Part shown: positions 739-64,000 of the stretch, piece after piece | Position numbering within the stretch: the stretch's first letter is position 1 | Layout of the letters: every line of letters starts with the position of its first letter | Origin: an uncultured Actinomycetes bacterium | GTDB taxonomy: Bacteria; Actinomycetota; CADDZG01; WHSQ01 | DNA: 64,000 nt | Assembly (NCBI GenBank): GCA_937863385.1 | Contig: CALMBW010000020.1 | Span: 62,001-126,000 of the forward strand | Direction of reading: 5' to 3' | The notes under the pieces: generated by a model | What the model was told of the DNA's origin: nothing | What the model saw: the letters and a program-made list of their open reading frames with translations, nothing else | The model's database searches: none | Made by a program: the position numbers and the translations under genes

Positions 739-1653
739 ATGAAGCTTGGGATGGTGGGTCTCGGCAAGATGGGCGCCAACATGACGCGCCGGCTGATCAG
801 GGGCGGTCACGAGGTTGCCGTTTTCGATATCGATCCTCAAGCCGTGGTTTCGCTGACCGAGGAGGGCGCCGAGGCGACCGGGTCTCTAGCCGATCTGGCA
901 ACCAAACTCTCCCCGCCAAGGCTTGTGTGGGTGATGGTTCCCAGCGGCGAGATCACCAACACCACGATCACTCAGCTCAAAGATGTCTTGTCAGAGGGTG
1001 ACCTCGTCGTCGACGGGGGCAACTCTCGCTACACCGACTCGATGCGTCACGGCCGCGAGCTGGCCGAGGCAGGCATCTCGTTCCTGGACGCCGGCACCTC
1101 GGGCGGCGTGTGGGGACTCGACAACGGCTACTGCTTGATGGTCGGGGGTGCACAGGAATCGTTCGAGCGCGCCGAGCCCGTGTTAGCCACACTGGCTCCG
1201 AAGAACGGCTACGCCCATGTCGGCGAGACTGGCGCCGGACACTTCACGAAGATGGTTCACAACGGCATCGAGTACGCATTGATGCAGGCATACGGCGAAG
1301 GGTTCGAGCTACTCCATCAGAGCGAGTTCGACATCCCGATCGGAGAGGTTGCCGAGGTATGGCGTCACGGAAGCGTGGTGCGATCGTGGCTGTTGGATCT
1401 CTTGGCCAAAGCACTCGAGGATGATCCCGATCTCAGCGAGCTCGATGACTACGTCGATGATTCCGGCGAAGGTCGATGGACGGTGGAAACGGCGATCCGC
1501 TACGCGATCCCAACTCCGACGATCGCCATGTCGCTGTTCCAGAGATTCGCGTCTCGCCAAGATGCCTCGTACGCGGGAAAGATGATCTCGGCGCTTCGGC
1601 GCGAGTTCGGCGGGCATGCGGTCCGTTCCATCGAGGATCAAGGCGAGAAGTGA
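739..1653 (+). CDS. gnd: 6-phosphogluconate dehydrogenase, decarboxylating (short, YqeC-type)
   Basis: Oxidises and decarboxylates 6-phosphogluconate to ribulose 5-phosphate in the oxidative pentose phosphate pathway. The 304-residue length matches the short YqeC/GntZ-type enzymes, many of which prefer NAD, rather than the roughly 470-residue NADP form. Visible motifs are the N-terminal dinucleotide fold (GLGKMG at residues 7-12), GGNSRYTD, the substrate-loop GTSGGVWG near residue 121, and the catalytic lysine K171 in HFTKMVHNGIEY. The start at 739 was chosen because GGTGAGGAGG lies 9-18 bases upstream; the open frame extends further 5' but without a ribosome site. The partner genes zwf and pgl are about 25 kb away. 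Confidence 0.93.
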   Translation: MKLGMVGLGKMGANMTRRLIRGGHEVAVFDIDPQAVVSLTEEGAEATGSLADLATKLSPPRLVWVMVPSGEITNTTITQLKDVLSEGDLVVDGGNSRYTDSMRHGRELAEAGISFLDAGTSGGVWGLDNGYCLMVGGAQESFERAEPVLATLAPKNGYAHVGETGAGHFTKMVHNGIEYALMQAYGEGFELLHQSEFDIPIGEVAEVWRHGSVVRSWLLDLLAKALEDDPDLSELDDYVDDSGEGRWTVETAIRYAIPTPTIAMSLFQRFASRQDASYAGKMISALRREFGGHAVRSIEDQGEK

Positions 1654-1946
1654 GCACCAAGACCGCGCCGGTTCGGGTTCGCGACAGCGAAACAACGGAT
1701 GACGTCAGTCCGGAAAAGCCGTGGCTTGTCATCGTGTGGAACGATCCGATCAATCTCATGCCCTACGTGACCTGGGTGCTCCAGAAACTGTTCGGTTACC
1801 CCAAGCACAAGGCCGAGAAGCTGATGCTCGACGTCCATCACAAAGGCAAGGCGGTCGTTTCTTCCGGGGCGAAAGAGAAAGCCGAACTCGATTGCTTCCG
1901 CCTGCACGGCTACGGCTTGTGGGCGACGATGTCCAAGAGCGAATGA
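1650..1946 (+). CDS. clpS: ATP-dependent Clp protease adaptor ClpS
   Basis: A 98-residue adaptor that delivers N-degron substrates to the ClpA/ClpC unfoldase in the cytosol. The ClpS core is clear: a disordered N-terminus, then PWLVIVWNDPINLMPYVTWV and a VHHKGKAVV segment. The N-D-P residues are those that contact the substrate amino terminus in characterised ClpS proteins. The GTG start overlaps the gnd stop by four bases (GTGA), so translation is probably coupled. The DUF2017 gene follows at once, a neighbour pair common in actinobacteria. Confidence 0.92.
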   Translation: MSTKTAPVRVRDSETTDDVSPEKPWLVIVWNDPINLMPYVTWVLQKLFGYPKHKAEKLMLDVHHKGKAVVSSGAKEKAELDCFRLHGYGLWATMSKSE

Positions 1947-1977
1947 TCCTTCCGATGTCACGGTCCCCGCGCCACCA

Positions 1978-2484
1978 TTGATGCCTTCGTTCGAGCTGAT
2001 CCCGGATGAGGGTCTTCGAGTTGGATTCGACAGGATCGAGGCGCGGCTGCTGCGCGAACTCGTTGCCGAGATGAAACTGCTCCTGGAGGTCGACATCCCC
2101 CCTACAGACCCGGTGCTGGAGCGTCTCTTCCCACAGGCCTCAGATGACCCCGAAGAAGCCGCTCTCTATCGCGAACTCGTCGGAAGCGAGCTCAAGGCAG
2201 TGAAGGTCGAAGCTCTTAGGCTGGTTGCCGATCGGCTCGGACAGCGTGGCCCCCTCGAGACTTCGATCCCCGAAGAGGAATGGGACGCATGGTTGTCGTT
2301 GTTGACCGACATGCGACTCGCCATCGGGACCCGCATGCAGGTGACCGAAGCGATGATGGAAGCGGAGCTAGATCCCGAAGACCCAGACACTCCCGCGATG
2401 TCGGTGCTGCACTGGCTCGGGTGGGTCCAGGGTTCGATGCTGGCAGCTATCCAACAGGAGGACGAAGATGGCCACTTTGAATGA
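1978..2484 (+). CDS. DUF2017 family protein
   Basis: A 168-residue acidic, probably helical cytosolic protein of the DUF2017 family, which commonly sits beside clpS in actinobacteria. Recognisable pieces are FELIPDEGLRVGFDRIEARL, LRELVAEMKLLL, a D-P-V-L-E-R-L-F-P segment, and a C-terminal LHWLGWVQGSMLAAI helix. Function is unknown; the constant clpS linkage suggests a role near Clp proteolysis, which is inference. Two ATG codons (1978 and 1981) could start it. The 3' end overlaps bcp by 17 bases and contains the bcp ribosome site. Confidence 0.82.
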   Translation: MMPSFELIPDEGLRVGFDRIEARLLRELVAEMKLLLEVDIPPTDPVLERLFPQASDDPEEAALYRELVGSELKAVKVEALRLVADRLGQRGPLETSIPEEEWDAWLSLLTDMRLAIGTRMQVTEAMMEAELDPEDPDTPAMSVLHWLGWVQGSMLAAIQQEDEDGHFE

Positions 2485-2932
2485 AGGAGACGCAGCTCCA
2501 GATTTCGAGCTACGGGACGGCGATGGGAAGACATGGAGCCTGAGAGATCTGAAGGGCTCGAGGGTGATCCTCTACTTCTACCCCGCCGATGACACGCCTG
2601 GCTGCACCGCTCAAGCGTGCGACTTCCGAGACTCGATGCAGCCGTTGACCGCCGCGGGGTACACCGTGCTGGGGATCAGTCCACAGGACGCTGACAGCCA
2701 TGGCAGGTTCGCTGAGAGATACTCCTTGAACTTCCCCTTGCTGGTCGATGAGGACCACAAGGTCGCCGAGGCCTACGGCGCTTGGGGCGAGAAGAAGAAC
2801 TACGGCAAGATCTACGAGGGGATCGTCCGTTCCACGTTCGTGATCGATGACAATGGCGTTGTCGAGAAGGCGCTCTACAACGTCAAAGCGACCGGCCATG
2901 TGTCTCGGCTGAAAGAACAGTTGTCTCTCTAG
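2468..2932 (+). CDS. bcp: Thioredoxin-dependent thiol peroxidase (Bcp/PrxQ)
   Basis: A 154-residue atypical 2-Cys peroxiredoxin that reduces hydrogen peroxide and organic hydroperoxides using thioredoxin. The motif DDTPGCTAQACDFRD places the peroxidatic cysteine at C46 and the resolving cysteine at C51, the PrxQ spacing. FYPADDTPGCT and the later FPLLVDEDHKVAEAYGAWG block are family hallmarks. AGGAGG just ahead of the ATG lies inside the DUF2017 gene. The 3' end meets the convergent endonuclease IV gene with a four-base overlap. Confidence 0.94.
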   Translation: MATLNEGDAAPDFELRDGDGKTWSLRDLKGSRVILYFYPADDTPGCTAQACDFRDSMQPLTAAGYTVLGISPQDADSHGRFAERYSLNFPLLVDEDHKVAEAYGAWGEKKNYGKIYEGIVRSTFVIDDNGVVEKALYNVKATGHVSRLKEQLSL

Positions 2933-3687
2933 AGATCCAGGTTCGCTCGCAGATAGTCGAGATCGGCTGCTATGCCCGGCCAAGGTGTCTCGCAGATGAC
3001 GGCAGGCGCTCCGGAGGCCGCGATCATCGAGACGATCGACTCGGGATCCATCAGCCCTTGGTCGAAGTTCGCGTGGCGGTCTGCCCCGGTTCCCGCCTCA
3101 TCGCGTGAGCTGTTCGCATGCACCAGATCGATGCGCCCGGTCGCTTCGAGGACCCGCTCGATGACGGAATCCAACTCTTCCCCGGCGGCGTGTGCATGGC
3201 AGGTGTCGAAGCAGAAGCCGACGCTGTAGTCAGTGAGGTAGGTCCATAGCTTGGCGATGTTCTCCACGTAGCGCGCCATCGCGTTCTCACCTCCGGCCGT
3301 GTTCTCGATCAGGATCGGAACCGGTGGTTCACCTAGCTCCTCGAAGACCTTGGCCCAACGCACGTATCCCGCCTCGACCCCGTCTTCGGCATGGCCACCG
3401 TGCACGATGAAACCTGCGGCACCGATCTCGGCCGCGCGCTGCAGCGCGCCTTGCAAGGTCTTGCGAGACGGGATGCGGATGCGCGGGTTGGGGTGAGCGA
3501 CATTGATCCGGTACGGGGCGTGCACGTAGATGGGCACGTCCGAGGTTGCCAGCTCGTCGATGTCATCACGCGGCGGGGGTTGCTTGAACTCTTGCGGTGG
3601 CCCCACGAACATCTGCAGGCAAGAAGCGTCTAGGGATGCAGCTTCTTCTAGGGGGGCATCGCCGGGGACGTGGGCTCCAAGGATCAT
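2929..3687 (-). CDS. nfo: Deoxyribonuclease IV (AP endonuclease, Nfo family)
   Basis: A 252-residue TIM-barrel AP endonuclease that cleaves the backbone 5' of abasic sites in base-excision repair. The trinuclear metal-site segments occur in order: VHAPYRINVAHPN, VHGGHAEDG, ENTAGGENAMARY, FCFDTCHAHAAGEE, HANSSRDEAGTGADRHANFD and a final VICETPWPG. These match endonuclease IV rather than sugar isomerases of the same fold. It is slightly shorter than the E. coli enzyme (285 residues). It converges with bcp. Confidence 0.92.
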   Translation of the reverse strand: MILGAHVPGDAPLEEAASLDASCLQMFVGPPQEFKQPPPRDDIDELATSDVPIYVHAPYRINVAHPNPRIRIPSRKTLQGALQRAAEIGAAGFIVHGGHAEDGVEAGYVRWAKVFEELGEPPVPILIENTAGGENAMARYVENIAKLWTYLTDYSVGFCFDTCHAHAAGEELDSVIERVLEATGRIDLVHANSSRDEAGTGADRHANFDQGLMDPESIVSMIAASGAPAVICETPWPGIAADLDYLRANLDL

Positions 3688-3770
3688 CCAGGGACGCTAC
3701 CAACCGCAGCCCCATCGGTGTTTCCGGGCGCCGTTTGCCAGGCGGAAGGCGCATGGGGCAGGATGCCCGC

Positions 3771-4172
3771 ATGAAACTGCTCAGGGATGTGGGCATCCGC
3801 CATCTGGTGACCGTCGACCCCCAAGTCACGCTTAGGCATGCAGCACGAGCGATGATGGACCGAGGCGTCGGTTGTGCCGTGGTTATCGACGGCGAACAGG
3901 TCGCAGGCATCATCACCGAGCGAGACATCCTCAGATCGGTTTCTCAGAGCCAGGATCTCGACGCGGTCCTTGTGGGCAGCGCGATGACTCGCCATGTCGT
4001 CAGCGGTTCGCCCGGGTGGACCTTGGTCCAAGCCGTCAATGCGATGGTCGAAGGTGGCTTCCGTCATCTGTTGATCACCGAGATGGACGAACCCGTCGGC
4101 ATCGTGTCACTGCGCGACCTCATGGACTCGATGGTCGAGATGGTGCAAACCCAAGACACCGCGACTGCCTGA
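3771..4172 (+). CDS. Tandem CBS-domain protein
   Basis: A 133-residue protein made of two CBS domains (about residues 5-60 and 70-128), a module that binds adenosine nucleotides. The pattern TLRHAARAMMDRGVGCAVVI then VAGIITERDILRSV, followed by AMTRHVVSGSPG and GIVSLRDLMDSM, is the classical paired-CBS layout with GIITERD and GIVSLRD ends. No effector domain is attached. The start at 3771 has GGGGCAGG at suitable spacing; an in-frame ATG at 3753 is the alternative and adds six residues. Confidence 0.85.
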   Translation: MKLLRDVGIRHLVTVDPQVTLRHAARAMMDRGVGCAVVIDGEQVAGIITERDILRSVSQSQDLDAVLVGSAMTRHVVSGSPGWTLVQAVNAMVEGGFRHLLITEMDEPVGIVSLRDLMDSMVEMVQTQDTATA

Positions 4173-4202
4173 GCCCCACGGGCCCACAACAGATCTGCGC
4201 TT

Positions 4203-4643
4203 CTAGGAAGCTTCCGCTTGGGCTTTCAGTGCTTGCAACAACTCCGCCTGCATCTTCCGCAGGCGCCTTGCTAAGAACACCGCCAGCACACGGCCGAGGA
4301 CCCCGGCCGGCAGCTGAGAAGAAAGCGAATGTTCGATCGTGGTTCCGCTCGGGGTGCTCGATACCGTGTAGGTGATCTGCATCCCAACGCCGACCACCAC
4401 GCTCTGCTCGTATCTGTCTTCCGACACGTGCGTAGTTACCGACTTCCCATCAACGTCGAACCCGAGCATCCGGGCACGTCCATCCACAACGTCGGAGGGG
4501 GCCAGGGGGGCGGGTCCCTCGGCGATTCTGATCTCGGCCTGCCACTTCGGCCAGGTTGAGGGGTCGAGGATCAGCGCCATGACCTCAGCCCAGGATGCAT
4601 CGGTAGTGACCGACCTCGTGATCTCGAGTCTCTTGGTGAACAT
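4203..4643 (-). CDS. SRPBCC (START/Bet v 1-like) family protein
   Basis: A 146-residue single-domain protein of the SRPBCC helix-grip fold, which makes a hydrophobic ligand cavity. The N-terminal ITRSVTTDASWAEVMALILD strand-helix, the WPKWQAEIRIAEG segment and the long C-terminal helix LRKMQAELLQALKAQ match polyketide cyclase/dehydrase-like members. Ligand and role are not predictable. The ATG at 4643 starts the domain; an ATG 30 bases upstream is possible. It is divergent from the gamma-glutamyltransferase gene. Confidence 0.7.
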   Translation of the reverse strand: MFTKRLEITRSVTTDASWAEVMALILDPSTWPKWQAEIRIAEGPAPLAPSDVVDGRARMLGFDVDGKSVTTHVSEDRYEQSVVVGVGMQITYTVSSTPSGTTIEHSLSSQLPAGVLGRVLAVFLARRLRKMQAELLQALKAQAEAS

Positions 4644-4728
4644 CACAGCAGAGTGTAGGCAGCTTGCCTTCATGGGTACGGAGGTTTTCGCTGCGTTACC
4701 TCCCAGTACGAGCGGCTACCCTCAATAG

Positions 4729-6243
4729 GTGGACGCGAGATTAGGGATCGCCGCGGGTAGCACTCTGGGAGCCGAAGCGGCTGCCGAGATAGCGCGCGAG
4801 GGCGGCAATGCGGTCGATGCCTGCCTGGCGGCCGCCGTCATGGGGTGGGTGGCGGAACCGTTCTTCACCTCGATCGGTGGCTCGGGGTTCGTCGCGGTGC
4901 GCACGGCCGAAGGAAACGTCGAGATCATCGACGGCAACCAGATGATGCCGTTCACCGACCCGGCCGAGCCGGGCCAAGGGATCAAGCGCACCTTCCTGGA
5001 CTACTCAGACGGGATGTATACCGGCATCGGTGGAGGCTCGGTTGGAGTGCCCGGGATCCTCGCCGCAGTGCGACGTGCGTGGGAGCGCCATGGCAACGCC
5101 GATTGGGATGCACTGTTCGCACCGGCGATCCGAGCCGCTCGCGACGGCTTTCCCTTTCCCAAGACCTCCGCTTATTACCTGAGCGTCACCTTCGACGAGA
5201 TCTGGTCCAAATACCCCGAAGCCAAAGCACTGTTCGGCGACAGAGATGGACAGCCGCTCAAAGAGGGTGCTTTGTTCGTACAACCCGAGCTTGCCGATTC
5301 TCTCGAAACGATCGCGCAAGAGGGCCCCCGGACTTTCTACAAGGGCGAGCTTGCGCACCTGATCACCGATGCACTGCGCGCCGACGGCGGCTTCATGGAA
5401 GTTGCCGACCTGGAGGGTTACGAAGCCTACGTGCGCTTGCCACTGATCTCGGAGTGTTTCGGGTGGAGGCTGCACACCAACCCGCCGCCGGCATCAGGTG
5501 GCGCCTCTCTGGTGCATGTCTTGTCCATGCTCGAAAGCTCCCGGTTGAACGACCCCGTCGAACGACTTCGGGCCATCGCCGAAGCCCAACGTGCTGCGAC
5601 GATGCTGTCCTTCGAGGGCATGCAGGATGCCGATGACATCGCAGCCGAAGCCGAAGAAACCACTCTTTCCCCGACCGCCGTCGCGCAACAGCCCAGCAAG
5701 CGCGGCGAGACCACCCACTCGTCCAGCGCCGACATCGACGGATACGCGTGTGCGATCACGGAATCAGCGGGTTACGGAGCGGGCCTGGTGATCGCGGGCA
5801 TGTTGATGAACAACACGCTGGGTGAAGAAGAGCTGAATCCGCTAGGGGTACATGGTCTGGCTCCCGGGGCTCGCTGTCACACCAACATGGCCCCCACGAT
5901 CGCGTCGCGCGAGGACGACGGAAGCATCGTGGCGCTCGGCTCACCCGGAGCGACCCGCATCGTCGGAGCGATCGCCCAGACCTTCTTGCGCGTGGCGGTC
6001 GACGACATGCCCCTGCAAGAAGCGGTCGCGGCCCCCCGGGCTCACCTCGATCGCCGGGAAGCCGGGGACACGCTGTGTTTCGAGCCGGGCCTGCCCGGAA
6101 GCGAGATCGAGAACTTCCTGCACCGGCCCTACGAGGAGATTCACATGTTCTTCGGGGCCGTCCAGGCCGCGGGAGTAGATGCGAGCGGCCGAGTCCACGC
6201 GGCCCACGATCCCCGGCGCTCCGGCGGCTCCACCCTGATCTAG
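4729..6243 (+). CDS. ggt: Gamma-glutamyltransferase family protein (Ntn hydrolase)
   Basis: A 504-residue member of the gamma-glutamyltranspeptidase family, which autoprocesses into two subunits and hydrolyses or transfers gamma-glutamyl groups, typically of glutathione. The processing site GETTHSSSADIDGYA places the N-terminal nucleophile at T328. Other family blocks are GGNAVDACLAAAVMGWVAEP, IGGSGFVAV, MNNTLGEEELNPLG and GSPGATRI. There is no signal peptide, so unlike many bacterial homologues it may be cytosolic. The start is a GTG. Substrate is uncertain: cephalosporin acylases share the fold and processing. Confidence 0.88.
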   Translation: MDARLGIAAGSTLGAEAAAEIAREGGNAVDACLAAAVMGWVAEPFFTSIGGSGFVAVRTAEGNVEIIDGNQMMPFTDPAEPGQGIKRTFLDYSDGMYTGIGGGSVGVPGILAAVRRAWERHGNADWDALFAPAIRAARDGFPFPKTSAYYLSVTFDEIWSKYPEAKALFGDRDGQPLKEGALFVQPELADSLETIAQEGPRTFYKGELAHLITDALRADGGFMEVADLEGYEAYVRLPLISECFGWRLHTNPPPASGGASLVHVLSMLESSRLNDPVERLRAIAEAQRAATMLSFEGMQDADDIAAEAEETTLSPTAVAQQPSKRGETTHSSSADIDGYACAITESAGYGAGLVIAGMLMNNTLGEEELNPLGVHGLAPGARCHTNMAPTIASREDDGSIVALGSPGATRIVGAIAQTFLRVAVDDMPLQEAVAAPRAHLDRREAGDTLCFEPGLPGSEIENFLHRPYEEIHMFFGAVQAAGVDASGRVHAAHDPRRSGGSTLI

Positions 6244-53460: not shown

Positions 53461-55935
53461 TCACGGCTCGACGATCTGCGCAGGGTTGGTCAACTGGTTC
53501 GGAAATACCACGAGCAGTCTCCTTCTCGGGACCTCCAACGGCAGGGCACAATCGGTCCGCCACCACCAGCCTCCACAACCAAGGTTGTCTTCGACCGATC
53601 CGTTGAGATCGATGTCGTCGATCTGGACCGTGTCGCATTCAGGCATCAGTATGTCTCCCGAGAAGGTGTCGCCGCACACCCTGAACGTCGCCGTAAGGGT
53701 GGGCTGCTCGAAGTCCTGCAAATCGGCCACCACCGACAACGAAGACGAGTGCAAGCTGGGGTAGCCCCCGCGCAGGGTGCCGGAGCAGCCACCGAAGGTC
53801 ACCCTGCACCAACCGGGCTCGTAAAGCGGCTTCCGATAAGTGACCGTGCGCTCCCCATCGTTGAGCGTCACGCTAGCGGTCAGGGCGCGGCTGGTTTCGA
53901 ATGCTTCATCGAGGACCGCCACGATCTCAACCGGTTCCGAGATGTCTTCATCACCCTCGGCGAACTCAAGCCAGGTTCGCCCGCGCGGGTCTTCGCCTGA
54001 CGGCAGGATCGCACCGGGGCCGGCGAAGGTACGCGCTCCGACGAAGACGATGTCGGCACCCTCCATCCCATCTCCGAAAGCATCGGAGTTCACGTGCGGA
54101 TACACCTCGGCCGCCGGGCGTCCGGGGGATCCCGATACATCGAGATCGATGGTCGCGGGGTCGCCATCTCCGAGCTTGCTTGGGGCCTCCATCTCCGAGG
54201 CCGGCATCAAGGTCGCTTGCCAGACAGCCGTGTTTGATCGTGGTGCCGAGAACCTCAAACGCCCCCACGCCTGGATCTGGCGTTCGTACCACCTGTCTGA
54301 CTGAGCACGACCTGAGATCTTGCTCTCAGCCGGAACGAAACGCACCCAGATGGTCGTCTCAGGATCGGCTTGAAAGGTGAGCTCGGACTGAAACGATCCT
54401 CCTTCGGCAGAGAACGAGACCTCGAACCCAAGAGGCCCGCGCACGTCGGAGGCAGAAACGGTTCCAACCGTCGCGCTATCGGTCAGGGATCGCACGGTTA
54501 CCGGAAGCACGAGATCGCCCTCTGTCAGTTCTAGCCGGCCCAGCGAGACACTGGGGGGTAACACAACGAAACCCGCTCGCGCGCTTCGGTATATGTCGAC
54601 CCTGCCCGCTCCCGTTACCGTCGGGTCCTGGGAGTTGGACACCTGGGCCGGGCGCGCGCGACCCATCAACATCGCTGCAACTTCCGCAGGTGAAGCGCCC
54701 GGATGACGTTGAAGCAGCAGTGCCGCACTCCCCGACACATGGGGGGCCGCCATAGAGGTTCCCGACTTGTAGCTGCCGCCATCACCAGAACCAACCTCGG
54801 CGGAGAGGATCCCGGCACCGGGCGCGACGACATCGGGCTTCAAGGCAGAAGTCGTGCGGGCCGGGCCTTGCGACGAGAACGCCGCGGCATCGTCGGCGAG
54901 GTCGGTTGCACCGACCGCTACAACGCCCGGCGCCGTAGCTGGTGAGCCGACCATATAGGCAGCAACACCTGAGTACTCGTTGCCCGCATTGCCGGCGGCT
55001 GCGACGAACGAGATGCCAGCGTCAACGAGATTCTGAGCTGCCACCGACTCGGCCGAATCCTGAGTGCCGAAGGTGACTCCGCCGGAGAACGACACAACGT
55101 CCACTCGATCCGATGTGTCGCCATCGTCGTTGGGATCCAAGGCCCGTTCGTATGCGGCGATGAGTACGTCTGCCGTCGACGCACCACCGTTGCCCCAGAC
55201 CTTCAATGCAACGATCTTGGTGCCGGGCGCGACTCCCCGGCCGACCACGCCGGGTACACCCTTGCCGCAGCAGGTCGCACCCACATGGGTTCCATGTCCT
55301 TCAACGTCTAGTGGGTCGGGATCCGGATCGGGCACATCGTTATCCGAGCGCGAATCGATAGGGTCGTAGGGATCCCCCACGAAGTCATAACCGTCGATCA
55401 CTTTGGGGGTTGGGAACGAGCCCTCCTCGATCACCTCAGGGTCGTTACCGCGATAAGCCGCAACGGACCCCGATCCCCCAAACGCCCGATGGGTGTAATC
55501 GATGCCGGAATCGACAACCGCAACGGTGATGCCCTTTCCGGTCAACCCGAGCTGCTTGCGGGCTCTGAAAGCTCCGATGTGTTTGACACTTTCTGAGTTG
55601 TAGGCGCGAACGATCCCTGCCTTCTCGACGCTTTGGACACCCGGCATCCCGGCCAGCCGTAGCGCAGACGCTTGACTCATCCGCGCCGAGAAGCCGTCCA
55701 AGACTCGCTCGTAGACGAACCCCACGCGACCACCGGCGCGGGCCACCGCTCGCCTGGCGCTCCGTGCCACCGCCCCGTCGGTGGACGTCCGGACGATGTA
55801 GACATCCGCAGCTTCGGGCGAAGCCGGCTGGGCCGCACGACCCCTCGCGATCGGGGTCTGCATCAGACCGAACAAGGATGCTGCCGCAAGGCATGCCGCG
55901 AGACTCTTGCGGGTCATCGAGCGTGAAGCGTTCAC
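53461..55935 (-). CDS. Secreted subtilisin-like (S8) serine protease, second copy
   Basis: An 824-residue exported protease: signal peptide (SLAACLAAASLFGLMQTPIA), an I9-type inhibitor propeptide (VYIVRTSTDGAVARSARR to about residue 115), and an S8 domain with D142 in VVDSGIDYTH, H214 in EGHGTHVGATC and S394 in SGTSMAAPHVSG. The C-terminal half is beta-rich with several cysteines and no known domain. The GTG at 55935 overlaps the larE stop (GTGA); an ATG 18 bases later is the alternative start. Confidence 0.92.
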   Translation of the reverse strand: MNASRSMTRKSLAACLAAASLFGLMQTPIARGRAAQPASPEAADVYIVRTSTDGAVARSARRAVARAGGRVGFVYERVLDGFSARMSQASALRLAGMPGVQSVEKAGIVRAYNSESVKHIGAFRARKQLGLTGKGITVAVVDSGIDYTHRAFGGSGSVAAYRGNDPEVIEEGSFPTPKVIDGYDFVGDPYDPIDSRSDNDVPDPDPDPLDVEGHGTHVGATCCGKGVPGVVGRGVAPGTKIVALKVWGNGGASTADVLIAAYERALDPNDDGDTSDRVDVVSFSGGVTFGTQDSAESVAAQNLVDAGISFVAAAGNAGNEYSGVAAYMVGSPATAPGVVAVGATDLADDAAAFSSQGPARTTSALKPDVVAPGAGILSAEVGSGDGGSYKSGTSMAAPHVSGSAALLLQRHPGASPAEVAAMLMGRARPAQVSNSQDPTVTGAGRVDIYRSARAGFVVLPPSVSLGRLELTEGDLVLPVTVRSLTDSATVGTVSASDVRGPLGFEVSFSAEGGSFQSELTFQADPETTIWVRFVPAESKISGRAQSDRWYERQIQAWGRLRFSAPRSNTAVWQATLMPASEMEAPSKLGDGDPATIDLDVSGSPGRPAAEVYPHVNSDAFGDGMEGADIVFVGARTFAGPGAILPSGEDPRGRTWLEFAEGDEDISEPVEIVAVLDEAFETSRALTASVTLNDGERTVTYRKPLYEPGWCRVTFGGCSGTLRGGYPSLHSSSLSVVADLQDFEQPTLTATFRVCGDTFSGDILMPECDTVQIDDIDLNGSVEDNLGCGGWWWRTDCALPLEVPRRRLLVVFPNQLTNPAQIVEP

Positions 55936-56762
55936 GCCATCGAGCGGCGCAGCGTCGGAAGGGGCAACGCCTCGTTGAGAGATCCGGAACGGAAACCCTT
56001 GGGGTCGATCGTCACGTCCACGTATCCGAGTGATCGCAGATGCTCCTCGATCCGAGCCAACTGCGAGGTTGCCCGTGGGATCTCGCTCACAAGGAACTCG
56101 AGGCGCGCAAGCTCACCGTGATCGCGGACCCGGAACTCAAAGAATCCAAGAGATGCGACGAAATCTTCGGCGGCTTCGACCCGCCTCAAGCCCGCCGGAG
56201 TCACGCGTACTCCATAGGCGAACCTTGATGCGAGACAAGGCGATGAGGGCTTGGTTGCCGTCGGCAGGCTCATGGCCGCAGACAACTCCCGTATCTCTGC
56301 TTTGCTTAGTGCTGCTGAGACCAAAGGAGATAGCACCCGATGCTCTTTCGCCGCCATCAGCCCAGGGCGGTGATCGCCAAGGTCGTCTGTGTTGGTTCCA
56401 ACGATCACCGCCGCATCAAGCTCTGCGGCTATCGGCTCGAGGGTCGAGAACAGCTCGTCTTTACACCAGTAACAGCGATCGGACCCGTTCACTGCGTAGG
56501 CTTCCAGGGATACCTCGTGCGTGCCTACGGTGCGGTGGCGCCACCCACGAGAACGTGCCAGATCTGCCGCTTTACGTAGTTCGGAACGGGCCAATGATGG
56601 GGATACTGCTGTGACTGCGAGACAATCGACCCCTAGGGTGTCGTGAGCAACCGCAGTAAGAAAGGCTGAATCGACCCCACCGGAGTAAGCAACGACTACG
56701 CGGCCAAGGTCGCCGATGAGATCGGAGAGCACACGTTGCTTGTGTACCGCAAGGCCTGGCAT
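55932..56762 (-). CDS. larE: ATP-dependent sacrificial sulfur transferase LarE
   Basis: A 276-residue PP-loop enzyme. VVAYSGGVDSAFLTAVAHD is the ATP pyrophosphatase loop, SDRCYWCKDELF a cysteine-rich helix, and SSPCLASRFAYG carries the cysteine that donates sulfur in LarE of lactate racemase nickel-pincer cofactor synthesis. larA, larB and larC are not in the window, so the product of this pathway here is uncertain. The start follows a long upstream open stretch; the ATG at 56762 fits the family N-terminus. Confidence 0.85.
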   Translation of the reverse strand: MPGLAVHKQRVLSDLIGDLGRVVVAYSGGVDSAFLTAVAHDTLGVDCLAVTAVSPSLARSELRKAADLARSRGWRHRTVGTHEVSLEAYAVNGSDRCYWCKDELFSTLEPIAAELDAAVIVGTNTDDLGDHRPGLMAAKEHRVLSPLVSAALSKAEIRELSAAMSLPTATKPSSPCLASRFAYGVRVTPAGLRRVEAAEDFVASLGFFEFRVRDHGELARLEFLVSEIPRATSQLARIEEHLRSLGYVDVTIDPKGFRSGSLNEALPLPTLRRSMA

Positions 56763-56797
56763 CACCCCATCTTCGCAGGGTTGCGACGGTTGGTGCC

Positions 56798-57022
56798 ATG
56801 ACTTCCCTCGCTCAGTCCTCTTTCGCAGACTCCCTCGAAGACCCGGCGTTGGCCGTCGCTGCGGTGCTGCTGATCGTCGTCTCCGTGGCGTACATAGTCG
56901 TGTCGCGTCTGATAACCCGAGAGATCCGCAAGCAAGCACTTCGCCAGATGCGGGCCCGCAAGCCCGGCGCCCCACCCCCTAAGCCGCCCAAGGACAAAGA
57001 CATCTGGTCTTACCCGCCCTAA
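56798..57022 (+). CDS. Small single-helix membrane protein
   Basis: A 74-residue protein with one hydrophobic segment (ALAVAAVLLIVVSVAYIVVS), then a basic helix and a proline-rich KPGAPPPKPPKDKD tail. No family recognised. It is divergent from larE with 35 bases between starts and converges with the phosphodiesterase gene. Confidence 0.6.
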   Translation: MTSLAQSSFADSLEDPALAVAAVLLIVVSVAYIVVSRLITREIRKQALRQMRARKPGAPPPKPPKDKDIWSYPP

Positions 57023-58630: not shown

Positions 58631-59221
58631 TTACGGGCTGGGCTCGGGTGACGGTGGATCGGTCGGGGTAACCGTCGGAGTGGGAGTCACATCAGGTCTC
58701 AGCTGGGTCACCACACCCGTGTCCGGGATGCGATCGATACACACCCTGCGGCAGTTCTCTGAGCTGAAGAGCGTCTTGACTATCCACCGGTAGTCGATCC
58801 GGTCCTCCCCTAGATGCAACTTGTCCAGAGGGATCCGGACCGAGATGCTCGATCGGTCCTTACGCCACACCTTTAACGATGCGATGCGGTAATCACTCTT
58901 CTTCTTACGGTCTCGATAGAGGTCGCCATGGAACCCGCGGCCATCCGAATAGAGCAGAGCGTAATGATCGAAGCGTCCATCGCCGAAGCCATCGATGTGC
59001 ACCATCACGAAACCGGCGTCCCACATGTCAAACGCCCTGAACTTGGAGAACGAGATGGTGCGCCATACGGGAGAGTTGCTAGACGACATGCGAACCTGAC
59101 TGACGTCGAGCACTCCGTCCGTATCGTTCGGATCATCGAACGGCTGCGCAGCAGCTCTAACGAGCAGTGGCGATGACGCTAGGAGCAGCACCAGCAGGGC
59201 TAACCATCTCAACCTGGTCAT
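58631..59221 (-). CDS. Secreted protein of unknown function in the Mau-like module
   Basis: A 196-residue exported protein with signal peptide (LALLVLLLASSPLLVRAAA), an acidic DDPNDTDGVLDVSQVRM start, a beta-rich body (RTISFSKFRAFDMWDAGFVM, RFDHYALLYSDGRG, RIPLDKLHLGEDRIDYRWIV), two cysteines in CRRVCIDR, and a Pro/Thr-rich tail. No known domain. The ATG overlaps the mauE stop by four bases, so the two are co-translated. Confidence 0.75.
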   Translation of the reverse strand: MTRLRWLALLVLLLASSPLLVRAAAQPFDDPNDTDGVLDVSQVRMSSSNSPVWRTISFSKFRAFDMWDAGFVMVHIDGFGDGRFDHYALLYSDGRGFHGDLYRDRKKKSDYRIASLKVWRKDRSSISVRIPLDKLHLGEDRIDYRWIVKTLFSSENCRRVCIDRIPDTGVVTQLRPDVTPTPTVTPTDPPSPEPSP

Positions 59222-59748
59222 TCGATACCTCTCTTGAACGAACGAGTGACCGAGTAAAGCAGCCACACCGCAGCGGCAGCAGCCAGCAACATGAGCAAGG
59301 CCGGGACGATCTGGTCCCCGCTGGGCACCCCGACACCTTCCAACAGATCCACCTCGCGATCCCCCAGAAGCATCACGGCGGCGGCGCCGCCGAGAACGGT
59401 ATTGCGCAAGAGGATGACCCTGTAGTCCCGAACCTTGCTTGACCCGAAGCATCCACATGGAAGCCGATCGCCCTGAAGATTCCTCAGTCTTACCGCGGCA
59501 AAGGTGAATGCACTCAACATCCCGACCGACATCGCGCCGGCGGTTCGGGTCTCGCCCGCCAGTACCAAGGCGGTCACAAGAGCTTCGGTCAAGGGCACCA
59601 GGAGGGCGGCGAAAGCCGTTAAGGCACCCAAACGATAGTTCTTCAGAACGTCTCGCCATGCCTGGGGTCGAGCCATCTTGGCCCCGGCGGACCAAGCAAA
59701 CACAACCGCTATCAACGCTGAACAGACTTGGATCGTCGCAGCCGGCAC
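59218..59748 (-). CDS. mauE: MauE/DoxX-like redox membrane protein
   Basis: A 176-residue four-helix membrane protein of the MauE family. The signature LPCGCFGSSK lies after the second helix; its paired cysteines are thought to pass reducing or oxidising equivalents across the membrane. In methylotrophs MauE and MauD are needed for folding of the methylamine dehydrogenase light chain. It is divergent from the MauD gene with a 126-base spacer. Confidence 0.88.
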   Translation of the reverse strand: MPAATIQVCSALIAVVFAWSAGAKMARPQAWRDVLKNYRLGALTAFAALLVPLTEALVTALVLAGETRTAGAMSVGMLSAFTFAAVRLRNLQGDRLPCGCFGSSKVRDYRVILLRNTVLGGAAAVMLLGDREVDLLEGVGVPSGDQIVPALLMLLAAAAAVWLLYSVTRSFKRGIE

Positions 59749-59874
59749 GTCCGCATACTAGTGCGCCGTCTCGCAAATGCCGCCTTCTAGCAACGAGCCG
59801 CTGCCGCGTACGGAAAGCATCACGGACCACGCTACGGTGGACGCTCGGTAGGCACTCGCGGAAGGTCGCTCTGC

Positions 59875-60435
59875 TTGGACGGTTGGTGGGCAGCTTCGTA
59901 CATCGCACTGTGGTTGTTGGTCATCGTCCTGGCAGTGGTCGTCGCTGCCCTTGCCCGCCAGATCGGCACCTTGCACCTACGGCTCGGCCCCCGCGGAGCC
60001 CTCGAACTAGACGATGAGGGGCCCGCTCTGGAAGAGATTCTTCCCGTGACCACTGCGACCTCGGTGGAGGGAACGGCAGTGTCGTTAGGGGGACCGGGAG
60101 AAGCCCAGCTCCTGCTCTTCGTATCGCCTGGGTGCGGCGTCTGTGAGCAGGTGCTTCCGTCGATCCCGGTCATCGCCCAAGCCGGACGGATCGCTCCCTA
60201 TGTCCTTACCGATGTGGACGCAGAAGAGACCGAGCTCGCCTACAAGAACAAGCGACTTGGGGTACCGCTCGTTCCGGCAAGTGAGGCCGTGCTCCGCTAT
60301 GGGATCCCGGGCACCCCTTATGTTGTCGTGACAGACGCTACGGGGACGGTGCGGGCGAAGGGCACAGTGAACAATCTCGAGCAGATGGAAGGTTTGGTTG
60401 ATTCAGCGGACAAGAGGAGCAGAACAGGTGCTTGA
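59875..60435 (+). CDS. mauD: MauD-like thioredoxin-fold membrane protein
   Basis: A 186-residue protein with one N-terminal transmembrane helix (ASYIALWLLVIVLAVVVAAL), the MauD-type HLRLGPRGALELDDEG linker, and a thioredoxin-like domain facing outward with the redox motif CGVC in LLFVSPGCGVCEQVLPS and a cis-proline GIPGTPYVVV. It is expected to make or reshuffle disulfides in the exported MauA-like protein next door. It starts with TTG after GGAAGG. Confidence 0.87.
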   Translation: MDGWWAASYIALWLLVIVLAVVVAALARQIGTLHLRLGPRGALELDDEGPALEEILPVTTATSVEGTAVSLGGPGEAQLLLFVSPGCGVCEQVLPSIPVIAQAGRIAPYVLTDVDAEETELAYKNKRLGVPLVPASEAVLRYGIPGTPYVVVTDATGTVRAKGTVNNLEQMEGLVDSADKRSRTGA

Positions 60436-60958
60436 TTCGATCACGACCAAGGTGAGTGTCGGCCTGGCTGGATCGACGAGCAGACGATCCTTTTTGGGCC
60501 GGCTCGGCGCAGGTGTCGTGGCTCTAGCTGGTGGTCCTTTAGTTGCTGCGGCCTTGAGGCCGGAGAGGGCCGAGGCGTATCACATCTGTGGGCACACCTA
60601 CACGACGGACTCTTGCCCGCATCCGTACCGTCCGCTCAGCCGTGTTGACAGATTCGGCTACCCGATCCATCCAACCTACGGATATCCCGTTGACGACAAG
60701 GGCCGCATCTACAAGAGCAAGCATCAGAAACGCAGCCTCATGTGTCAGGACTTGGTCAAGAAGAGATACCCCCATACAGGCGAACCTCGTTACGGCGGTG
60801 GCTGGAGTCGCTGTTGCAACGGGCGCGTTCGTCGTATCGCGGATTGTTGCAGCTACTCGCGCACCCGGATCAATGGCGACGCCAGCGTGACCGGATACTG
60901 CTACAGCGGTACTCGGGTGTTCTGCATCGGCTACCGCGACACCAACGTTCGCTGCTAA
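60428..60958 (+). CDS. Tat-exported cysteine-rich MauA-like (light chain-like) protein
   Basis: A 176-residue protein with a twin-arginine signal (STSRRSFLGRLGAG then a hydrophobic stretch), processed near AEAYH. The mature part has ten cysteines (including CC pairs in SRCCNG and ADCCSY) and many Gly/Tyr/Arg residues. Its place after MauD and its Cys pattern resemble methylamine dehydrogenase light chain. However, the mature chain has only one tryptophan (in GGGWSRCC), so the two-Trp cofactor TTQ cannot form. No heavy chain or MauG is nearby. The GTG overlaps mauD by eight bases, with GAGGAG upstream. Confidence 0.75.
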   Translation: MLDSITTKVSVGLAGSTSRRSFLGRLGAGVVALAGGPLVAAALRPERAEAYHICGHTYTTDSCPHPYRPLSRVDRFGYPIHPTYGYPVDDKGRIYKSKHQKRSLMCQDLVKKRYPHTGEPRYGGGWSRCCNGRVRRIADCCSYSRTRINGDASVTGYCYSGTRVFCIGYRDTNVRC

Positions 60959-60961
60959 CCC

Positions 60962-61036
60962 ATGAACGAGGTAACGGTGGTTGTCACCGTCCTCGCGTCG
61001 ATCATCGCCGGGTGGTCGACCTTGTTCGGCCCCTGA
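60962..61036 (+). CDS. Possible 24-residue hydrophobic peptide
   Basis: An open frame from ATG to TGA beginning MNEVTVVVTVLASIIAGWST and ending L-F-G-P, a single membrane-spanning helix. It begins three bases after the MauA-like stop and ends nine bases before the next gene. There is no good Shine-Dalgarno, so coupled translation would be required. Support is position and composition only. Confidence 0.35.
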   Translation: MNEVTVVVTVLASIIAGWSTLFGP

Positions 61037-61045
61037 GGTCTTTCG

Positions 61046-61645
61046 ATGGTGGAAACCATCTCCCCCATGGTGCATGGGGGCCGTAATGCCTCTTACTACA
61101 GAGCCGTAGCGCTGCACACACTAGGTGCGTCACTTTCTGCGGCCGCGCTCGGAACAGCACTGGGCGTTTTCGGCAGTACGCTCGGCGCGCCATGGGGTGA
61201 CGGCGGACTGTGGGTTGTTGCAGGGATCGCAGCACTGTATGCGCTACGCGAGCTTGCAGGGGTGAACATCCCATTGTTGGACCTGGACCGACAGGTACCC
61301 ATGTGGTGGCGCAGCTTCTTTAGCAACGACATCGCAGCGCTCCTCTACGGACTCGGCTTAGGCGTTGGATTCGTTACTTACCTCAGCTTCGGGACGCTGA
61401 TCGCCGTGGCAGCAACCGCTTTGGTGTCTGGCTCCCCAGGCATAGGGGTGCTTTGCTTGCTCCCGTTCGGCATCGCCCGCGGACTATCAGTCCTCGCCGT
61501 AGGAAAGGGCGAACCCAGCGACCTCCTCGAACGGCTGGAAGACCCGGCGATCCGAGCCCGAGCAAAACTCGTCAACGGTCTCGCTTTGGTGACGGCGGCA
61601 GTCGCGGTTGCCGCCCCGACCCTAGTCGATAGTCCTTTTCCCTAG
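61046..61645 (+). CDS. Integral membrane protein of the Mau-like module
   Basis: A 199-residue protein with about five helices. The N-terminal TISPMVHGGRNASYYRAVAL, the loop LDLDRQVPMWWRSFFSNDIA and the LLPFGIARGLSVLAVGKGE segment look like conserved family features, but I know no function. GAGG is well placed before the ATG. The stop overlaps the CCCTAGGA element ahead of the regulator gene. Confidence 0.7.
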   Translation: MVETISPMVHGGRNASYYRAVALHTLGASLSAAALGTALGVFGSTLGAPWGDGGLWVVAGIAALYALRELAGVNIPLLDLDRQVPMWWRSFFSNDIAALLYGLGLGVGFVTYLSFGTLIAVAATALVSGSPGIGVLCLLPFGIARGLSVLAVGKGEPSDLLERLEDPAIRARAKLVNGLALVTAAVAVAAPTLVDSPFP

Positions 61646-61668: not shown

Positions 61669-61770
61669 ACTGTCATAAGGACACTGGATGTGTCGCTGAG
61701 GCCATCTACATTTCCGATACACGCCGACAGCGCGCGGACCAGGACCGTTATGGGATGGTGGGGGTGGTTG

Positions 61771-64000
61771 ATGAACGACGGGGACAGATTCGTCGACACC
61801 CCCTTGCTCGAACGCACGGTCGAGTGCGGTCTCTTGGATCGGGTGATGGAATCCGCCCACTCTGGATCTGGTCGTTTCGTTTTCATCGAGGGCACCGCAG
61901 GGGTGGGCAAGTCGAGCATGCTCGGATACCTCCGTAAGTCAGCACATGGGTCTCTCGTCTTACATGCACAGGCAACCCCTATCGAACGCCCTGCACCCTT
62001 CGCCGTCGTCACCAAAGCCCTGCGAGATGCGCTCGATGAACTCGACCCCGCTGAACGGAATCTCATATTCGTGGGATCTGCGCGCTTGAGCCGCCCTCTT
62101 TTCGAACCCTTGACCCCTGGGGGCTCAGCGAGCGATCCACATGGCTTCTCCCGGTTACACGGTCTGTACTGGCTGTTGTCGAATCTCAGTGAAGCCACTC
62201 CCGTGGTGTTCATGATCGACGATCTGCACTGGGCAGACGCGTCCTCGATGCGGTTCCTTCTGTACCTCGCACATCGTGTGGACACACTTCCTGTCGCTGT
62301 CGTTGCAACGCGCAGGATCGAGGGACCTGGTGACTCCGAGGGATTGGTTTCCCAATTGCGCGCTCACCCGTCCGTTCAAAGCCTCCGACTCGAATCCCTC
62401 AGCGCCGAGGCAACCCGGGACCTGCTCAAGACGCGGCTGAGCAGCAGCCCCACCGACAGCATGGTTAGGCGTGCACACGAACTAACGGGGGGTAACCCTT
62501 TCTTGTTGAAAGAACTCGCAGACAGCATGCGCGAGGGCGCCGACACCGGGTCTAGAGATATCTCCTCGATCGGATCGGAAGTGAGCTCGGTTCACCAGAC
62601 GATCCGGCGCAGACTCACCGGTCTGCCAGACAACGCGTACAGCTTGGCGCGCGCTCTCGCTGTGCTCGGAGACGGAACATCACTTCGCTCTGCCGCGCGG
62701 CTCACCGGCCTCGAGTACGAGGGGGCGCAAGATGCTCTCACACTTCTGATCGAGCGAGGCCTGGCGATGGGGGGAGACCAGTTGAGCTTCGCGCACCCTT
62801 TGATCGCGTCCGCCGTCTACGATGAGATCCCTCCTGCTCGGCGTATGGCGATGCACACCCGGGCGGCCCTGATCATCGATTCTGATGGTGCTTCTATCCA
62901 ACGCGTTGCTTCACACCTCTTGCTAGGCGACATCACCGAAGAGGCCTGGGCGTTCGACAAGCTTAGGTCCGCTGGGCAGGATGCGGTATCGCTCGGCGCA
63001 CTCGAATCTGCGTCGATCTTCTTGCGAAAAGCTCTTGATCACGCGACAGAGCCCCACTTGCGGGCGGAGCTCTTGATGGAGCTTGCCGAGGTTGAGGCTC
63101 CGAACGATCTCCCAAGCTCGCTTGCTCACCTTAGAGAAGCATCCGAGATAGTTGACGATGCCGGTCGTAGAGCAGAGGTTCACCGGAGGATCGGGCGAGC
63201 TCTCTACGGTCTCGGAAAACCGGCCGAAGCTGTTCCCTTCTTCGAACTTGCCATGCAAGACCTCCATGGGCATCCTGAACTCCTTGCCGAAGTGAAGGGT
63301 GAAACGATCGCGGTCGCCCGGCTCGATCTGTCCACGCGACCTAGATCGCTGGAGTTGCTCGACGAGCTCACATCTTCTGAGCTGAAGCGGAACGACAACA
63401 ACCTCCGCAGCATCCACGTAGAACTTGCCCTTTCGAGCATCCGAGATATCGAGCCGGTTGAGAAGGCTGTAGCGCATCTGCAGAACGCCCGGTTCCCCCT
63501 CACGCAACCACTCGTCGAGAACGGTGACGGCGCCTTGATCCCGCCATTCATCATGGGGCTGGTGTGGTCCGATCAACTCGCCGAGGCACGCCGCGTCATG
63601 GATGCGGTGGTGGAAGACGCTCAAGTCAGAGGGTCCATCATGGCGTTCGCCACCGGCCGAGCCTTCGGTGCGACCGTTCTCTTCAGGATGGGCCAGGTAG
63701 ACGAGGCGGTCGCCGCCGCTCAAGATGCGATCGATGCCGAGCCTCACGGCTGGGGCGTGGGTCGATTCATCGTCCGTGCCTGGCTCGCCCATGGACTGAT
63801 GGAGCGTCATGAGCTTGCAGCCGCCGAGCACATCCTCGACCAGGCAATGGCGGACAGCTCGATCTCACAGTCGATACAACAGGTTTTCGTCTTCGACGCC
63901 CGAGCTCGGCTCCTCATCCTTCAGGGACGGCCTGTCGAGGCGATGGCCGAGGCGAATCGGGCTCGCTCTCTTGCCCTTGAGCAGCTCAACAACATCAACC
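61771..64000 (+). CDS. Large LuxR/MalT-type AAA ATPase regulator, N-terminal part (runs off right edge)
   Basis: At least 743 residues are visible. The AAA/STAND NTPase has Walker A EGTAGVGKSS, Walker B VVFMIDDLHWAD and ELTGGNPFLLKELAD, followed by helical and TPR-like repeats (AEAVPFFELAMQDL and related). The C-terminal LuxR helix-turn-helix expected in the family would lie beyond the window. Such proteins sense a ligand through their repeats and activate transcription. An ATG at 61750 would add seven residues. Confidence 0.82.
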   Translation, partial: MNDGDRFVDTPLLERTVECGLLDRVMESAHSGSGRFVFIEGTAGVGKSSMLGYLRKSAHGSLVLHAQATPIERPAPFAVVTKALRDALDELDPAERNLIFVGSARLSRPLFEPLTPGGSASDPHGFSRLHGLYWLLSNLSEATPVVFMIDDLHWADASSMRFLLYLAHRVDTLPVAVVATRRIEGPGDSEGLVSQLRAHPSVQSLRLESLSAEATRDLLKTRLSSSPTDSMVRRAHELTGGNPFLLKELADSMREGADTGSRDISSIGSEVSSVHQTIRRRLTGLPDNAYSLARALAVLGDGTSLRSAARLTGLEYEGAQDALTLLIERGLAMGGDQLSFAHPLIASAVYDEIPPARRMAMHTRAALIIDSDGASIQRVASHLLLGDITEEAWAFDKLRSAGQDAVSLGALESASIFLRKALDHATEPHLRAELLMELAEVEAPNDLPSSLAHLREASEIVDDAGRRAEVHRRIGRALYGLGKPAEAVPFFELAMQDLHGHPELLAEVKGETIAVARLDLSTRPRSLELLDELTSSELKRNDNNLRSIHVELALSSIRDIEPVEKAVAHLQNARFPLTQPLVENGDGALIPPFIMGLVWSDQLAEARRVMDAVVEDAQVRGSIMAFATGRAFGATVLFRMGQVDEAVAAAQDAIDAEPHGWGVGRFIVRAWLAHGLMERHELAAAEHILDQAMADSSISQSIQQVFVFDARARLLILQGRPVEAMAEANRARSLALEQLNNIN

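Follow-up and report, generated by a model that had tools for sequence, protein, structure and literature searches.

Organization of the locus

The window, a stretch of 64 000 nucleotides from the genome of an uncultured actinomycete (99.8% complete, 2.77 Mb), contains a divergent group of mau-like genes. On the minus strand, a gene for a MauE-like membrane protein with a conserved CGCFG motif (59218..59748) lies next to one for a secreted protein of 196 amino acids (58634..59221), which is predicted to be β-rich and has a conserved C-x3-C motif near its C-terminus. On the plus strand lie the genes for a MauD-like membrane-anchored thioredoxin with a CxxC motif (59875..60435), a Tat-exported Cys-rich protein (60428..60958) and a MauF homologue (60962..61645), which would be read through an in-frame TGA at 61034..61036 and is a predicted selenoprotein of 227 amino acids with selenocysteine (Sec) as residue 25. 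Two SECIS-like hairpins lie on the same strand downstream of this codon: GAUGGU-GGAA-ACCAUC (61045..61060) and CCCCCAUG-GUG-CAUGGGGG (61062..61080).

The genes of the module were assigned by profile matches and not from lists of open reading frames, because high-GC loci of this kind contain many antisense frames. The MauE-like protein clears the Pfam cut-off (PF07291, 78.9 versus 27 bits), whereas the MauD-like protein stays below the equivalog cut-off of TIGR02661 (96.5 versus 188.6 bits) but retains the CxxC motif; both assignments were also supported by alignment, and the Tat signal of the Cys-rich protein was recognized by TIGR01409 (22.6 bits). The initial annotation had grouped these four proteins, and it had noted a four-base overlap between mauE and the secreted-protein gene, which agrees with mauE at 59218–59748 and the ATG of its neighbour at 59221. 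The secreted-protein gene is real, but its frame is 58634–59221 and not the 425-residue open reading frame starting at 59908. The classical partners are missing, as had been proposed: the MauB model (PF06433), which scores 702 bits on the Paracoccus plasmid as a positive control, has no match in the whole genome, and MauG, amicyanin (MauC) and MauJ have none in the neighbourhoods of the module (Paracoccus MauG and MauC being used as tblastn queries).

The Cys-rich gene was found in 14 of the 16 genomes of the family to which the source genome belongs, with 66–73% identity in the others (also measured as 65–72% within the family), and the same neighbours are present wherever the contig extends far enough, so that the module is conserved beyond chance; none of eight genomes from the two remaining families of this class has the Cys-rich protein. 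The secreted protein is present in 12 genomes of the same family. In another family (f9) MauF and MauE are fused in a single frame with the secreted-protein gene next on the same strand, and this gene is collinear downstream of MauF-MauE in seven loci of that family; the linkage of the flanking genes that the initial annotation had expected is therefore conserved. MauE and MauD are fused in three further families (f16, f31 and f40), and MauE- and/or MauD-like genes lie close by in most of the wider set of copies encoding the Sec form of MauF (Sec-MauF). The module that recurs across families consists of MauE, MauD, Sec-MauF and a Tat-exported Cys-rich protein. The AF2 model of the secreted protein is β-rich with a pLDDT of 63, and a fold search with it gave no PDB match with E < 1e-3.

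Two other frames lie close to the module. A few genes away, 55932–56975 resembles, by eye, an ATP-dependent sulfur transferase of the LarE/ExsB type, and immediately 3' of mauF, 61690–64000 is the beginning of a large ATPase/repeat protein, which looks like a LuxR-type regulator and extends past the window.

A mauF frame interrupted by TGA

In the initial annotation, a possible 24-residue peptide (60962–61036) and a membrane protein (61046–61645) were listed as separate items. They form one frame with a TGA between them, and both halves are conserved. In relatives the stop of the ‘peptide’ always lies nine bases ahead of the ATG of the membrane protein, a constancy that would be odd for two genes. 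Distant homologues in five genomes (G075, G345, G390, G115 and G036) have a single open frame with TGC in place of TGA and read ...GTWSPCGLSMIETI, compared with ...STLFGP-TGA-GLSMVETI in the TGA forms, and MauF of Paracoccus reads ...LLSTWSPCGYSS at the aligned site. The read-through protein matches Paracoccus MauF with a profile score of 112 bits and, in profile–profile comparison, with an E value of 9.6e-23 over 179 columns, and the UGA falls on the invariant Cys of the SPCG motif of MauF; the part downstream of the TGA alone, used as a query against the plasmid, led nowhere. Because the window copy has UGA at the SPCG Cys, it would be a Sec variant and not a classical MauF.

The codons themselves appear to be selected as protein. 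The Gly-Leu-Ser codons between the TGA and the ATG, which would be translated in neither of two separate reading frames, vary synonymously (pN/pS 0.14, on three codons only), and the part upstream of the TGA has a pN/pS of 0.40 in this frame compared with 1.4 and 2.0 when it is read in the alternative frames. In four genomes (G271, G236, G210 and G131) ATG, GTG and TTG are all absent at the position downstream of the TGA. From these comparisons, 60962–61645 is read as a single gene encoding a homologue of MauF. In four of the genomes with the Cys form (G075, G345, G036 and G115; L069, L070, L073 and L074), the Cys-form MauF runs in frame into a repeat-rich domain of about 250 residues that looks β-propeller-like by eye.

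When 397 Actinomycetota genomes were surveyed in six frames, 68 gave a MauF match, and 56 of these have a copy in which a single TGA is the only stop. Among the aligned copies in which the codon could be read, 55 have TGA and nine have TGC, and on a quick tree three changes suffice to account for the Sec/Cys label. About 14% of the sampled species genomes (56/397) thus hold a gene of this kind, which routine gene calling would split; if the product is a selenoprotein, it is widespread in the phylum and would be a reason for many genomes to retain the Sec machinery. Two further, divergent MauF-like copies (L212 in G115, C81, and L213 in G258) also have TGA at the aligned position, so that G115 combines a Cys form with a TGA form.

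Selenium machinery and recoding hairpins

The source genome encodes SelA (535 bits), SelB (296 bits) and SelD (390 bits), together with a tRNA-Sec with a UCA anticodon. A selA gene is present in 54 of the 56 genomes with the TGA form, in two of the nine with the Cys form and in 231 of all 397 (Fisher p = 2e-6 and 8e-12, values that overstate independence because the genomes are related). The two TGA-form genomes in which selA had no match, G007 and G398, are both fragmented MAGs. In another genome (G101, L197), the opposite strand carries a selA-like gene some 2.5 kb downstream of the codon for Sec in MauF, adjoining a gene for a Tat-exported Cys-rich protein with LGFP repeats.

Two tandem hairpins lie just downstream of the TGA in the TGA copies. 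Of the hairpin cells in an alignment of 19 TGA sequences, 95% are paired, with three compensated pairs, a result reached in none of 500 shuffles; in the Cys homologues (n = 5) 44% of these cells are paired. Across groups of the wider family, stem 1 switches from GAUGGU/ACCAUC to GAUGCU/AGCAUC, that is, from GGU/ACC to GCU/AGC. At least five of the six pairs of hairpin 1 are kept in 48 of 55 TGA copies versus two of nine Cys copies (p = 1.6e-4); the seven remaining TGA copies have fewer than five pairs in the common register, and the type found in G271 pairs in a shifted register. The wobble sites within the stems are frozen (TCG in 18/18 and Thr ACC in 18/18 sequences; in the wider group, Ser AGC in 29/29 and Pro CCG in 29/29), and those Cys homologues of families f31, f40 and f16 that have Thr at the frozen ACC codon use ACG. 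An Rfam search of the recoding site matched no SECIS family. Folded singly, the window copy is weak and unremarkable (z = −1.85); the case rests on comparison. Decoding of the UGA as Sec through the downstream hairpin is strongly supported as a prediction by the comparative evidence, from which we infer Sec insertion in vivo.

The conventional reading of the site, namely a 24-residue membrane peptide ending at an ordinary stop and a separate protein started from the ATG at 61046 by translational coupling, draws on TGA being the codon that most often serves as an ordinary stop in these genomes, which counts against the Sec reading, and on a GAGG at the TGA that looks like a ribosome-binding site ahead of this ATG. 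It is nevertheless very improbable, since the site is a Cys both in canonical MauF and in homologues with an unbroken frame, the codons between the TGA and the ATG behave as protein, four genomes have no start there, the stem wobble sites are frozen and the TGA form is associated with selA; on these grounds a separate micropeptide was rejected. That the TGA is read through or reassigned to another residue, such as Trp, Cys or Arg, draws on the fact that the identity of the residue is not given by sequence alone, and we consider it slightly more improbable still: TGC is the only alternative seen at the site, the genome has the Sec machinery and tRNA-Sec(UCA), and the neighbouring Cys-rich gene itself ends in TGA in most of the same genomes, which rules out genome-wide reassignment. 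The internal TGA very probably encodes selenocysteine, and Sec-MauF would constitute a predicted selenoprotein family.

The Cys-rich exported protein

The protein encoded at 60428–60958 had been described as MauA-like, a description that applies to its leader and its gene position but not to its mature part. It shares with MauA (PF02975, TIGR02659) a Tat-type leader, the position after mauD and the richness in Cys, and the resemblance of the leader is significant (E = 4.8e-10 over 32 residues). In a 27-sequence alignment, the mature part has ten conserved Cys residues and a single invariant Trp (GW/SW..RCC), whereas MauA has the two Trp residues of tryptophan tryptophylquinone (TTQ), the second of which is missing here. 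No match of the mature domain to PF02975, TIGR02659 or a MauA profile was found (in the first PF02975 search of the genome the control was silent), and its alignment with MauA by hhalign is not significant (probability 0.4%, E = 0.14); with the leader alone matching, the case for a demonstrable homology of the mature domain to MauA was rejected. The AF2 model of this protein has a pLDDT of 40, too poor for use, and was therefore excluded from the fold search.

A Tat-signal Cys-rich protein is also encoded near most of the wider Sec-MauF copies, with the motif CPPGS..GWWK..RYIIDCN..FRYGQCN and, in at least one case, with LGFP repeats. In two genomes (G271, L075, and G210, L077) the Cys-rich protein is far longer, about 460–500 amino acids from stop to stop, with a long C-terminal part that follows a short N-terminal domain rich in Cys.

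A putative selenium-assisted thiol–disulfide relay

In the reading that we consider highly probable as a whole, 60962–61645 is one Sec-MauF gene, the UGA of which is decoded by SelA, SelB, SelC and SelD with the hairpin, and Sec-MauF forms a thiol–disulfide relay with MauE and MauD for the Cys-rich client. In such a scheme, the UGA at 61034 would be read as Sec through the hairpin structure just downstream, and MauF (related to DsbD/CcdA, with a single Sec), MauE (CGC) and MauD (the CxxC thioredoxin) would act as an extracytoplasmic relay. The Sec of MauF may exchange electrons with the cysteines of MauE, and MauD may hand electrons to the exported Cys-rich protein, in which up to five disulfides would be correctly formed or reshuffled; by analogy with DsbD, the direction may be guessed to be reductive or isomerizing. 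The MauF-MauE and MauE-MauD fusions suggest that MauE is a working partner of both MauF and MauD. The secreted protein at 58634 would be an additional member of the module. In Paracoccus, methylamine metabolism requires MauE and MauD, and MauE has been proposed to aid disulfide formation in the small subunit (cited in PMC7794033 from van der Palen, 1997). The initial annotation had assigned to MauE and MauD the folding of the Cys-rich protein; this protein is indeed the likely client of the module, but the central Sec-MauF had been missed.

A different task for the module has some points in its favour. Sec-MauF may be real and the main task of the module may be not disulfide handling but the addition of another modification or a protein-derived cofactor to the Cys-rich protein: the methylamine dehydrogenase cluster includes MauE, MauD and MauF, the Cys-rich proteins retain one invariant Trp, and in one genome (G398) Sec-MauF is paired with a true TTQ-type light chain. 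However, MauG is not nearby, the second TTQ Trp is missing and the conserved redox motifs of the module are all of the thiol type (CGC in MauE, CxxC in MauD and one Sec/Cys in MauF), so that we regard this as unlikely. A stronger form of the idea, in which Sec-MauF, MauE and MauD would be a selenium-dependent maturation machine that adds a covalent modification beyond disulfides to exported Cys-rich proteins keeping one of two TTQ-like Trp residues, giving a new type of protein-derived cofactor without MauG, is likewise doubtful. The predicted natural exchange of Cys for Sec marks the single redox residue of MauF and offers a handle on this poorly understood protein, and it becomes testable whether Tat-exported Cys-rich proteins have a dedicated folding route that is assisted by selenium.

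Relation to known systems

DsbD and CcdA carry a conserved Cys pair. Sec-MauF resembles this group (PF02683, PF13386) in the full read-through protein giving a sub-threshold match to DsbD_TM (19.5 bits, residues 7–216) and in the location of the Cys/Sec, close to where the first membrane segment ends, but it has one conserved Cys/Sec position and no conserved transmembrane Cys pair. With MauF of P. denitrificans PD1222 (WP_011750949) it shares homology as a membrane protein, the SPCG site and clustering with mauE, mauD and mauA; it differs in the Sec codon in place of Cys, a shorter N-terminus, the fusion with MauE in family f9 and the lack of mauB, mauG and amicyanin genes.

Mau-like clusters around Cys-rich products have already been noticed: the sections of PMC7794033 on decRiPPter describe Streptomyces clusters in which MauE, and in one family also MauD, lie beside a Cys-rich ‘precursor’ gene with the other mau genes absent. 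These were interpreted there as candidate RiPP clusters, and the same sections mention neither MauF nor selenocysteine. Membrane selenoproteins are also known, including the YeeE/YedE transporter family (GUxSG) and the rhodanese/DsbD-fusion-like TsoB (table in PMC13188914), which like Sec-MauF combine Sec with thiol or sulfur chemistry but differ in family and motif. A MauF-like entry is absent from the 2026 inventory of 119 prokaryotic selenoprotein families and subfamilies (PMC13188914), none of the selenoprotein models in NCBIfam (June 2026) matches Sec-MauF, and a literature search outside subscription papers and preprints, where an earlier mention is possible, found no work naming both ‘MauF’ and ‘selenoprotein’.

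The arrangement closest to the classical one was seen in G398 (L182, oriented 1077–5366), in which MauE, MauD, a true MauA, Sec-MauF and a secreted, possibly propeller-like protein of 450 amino acids follow each other in a near-classical methylamine dehydrogenase operon. The light chain encoded there matches PF02975 with 102 bits and has both TTQ Trp residues. Together with the modules that lack a heavy chain, this operon indicates that Sec-MauF occurs in both types of module.
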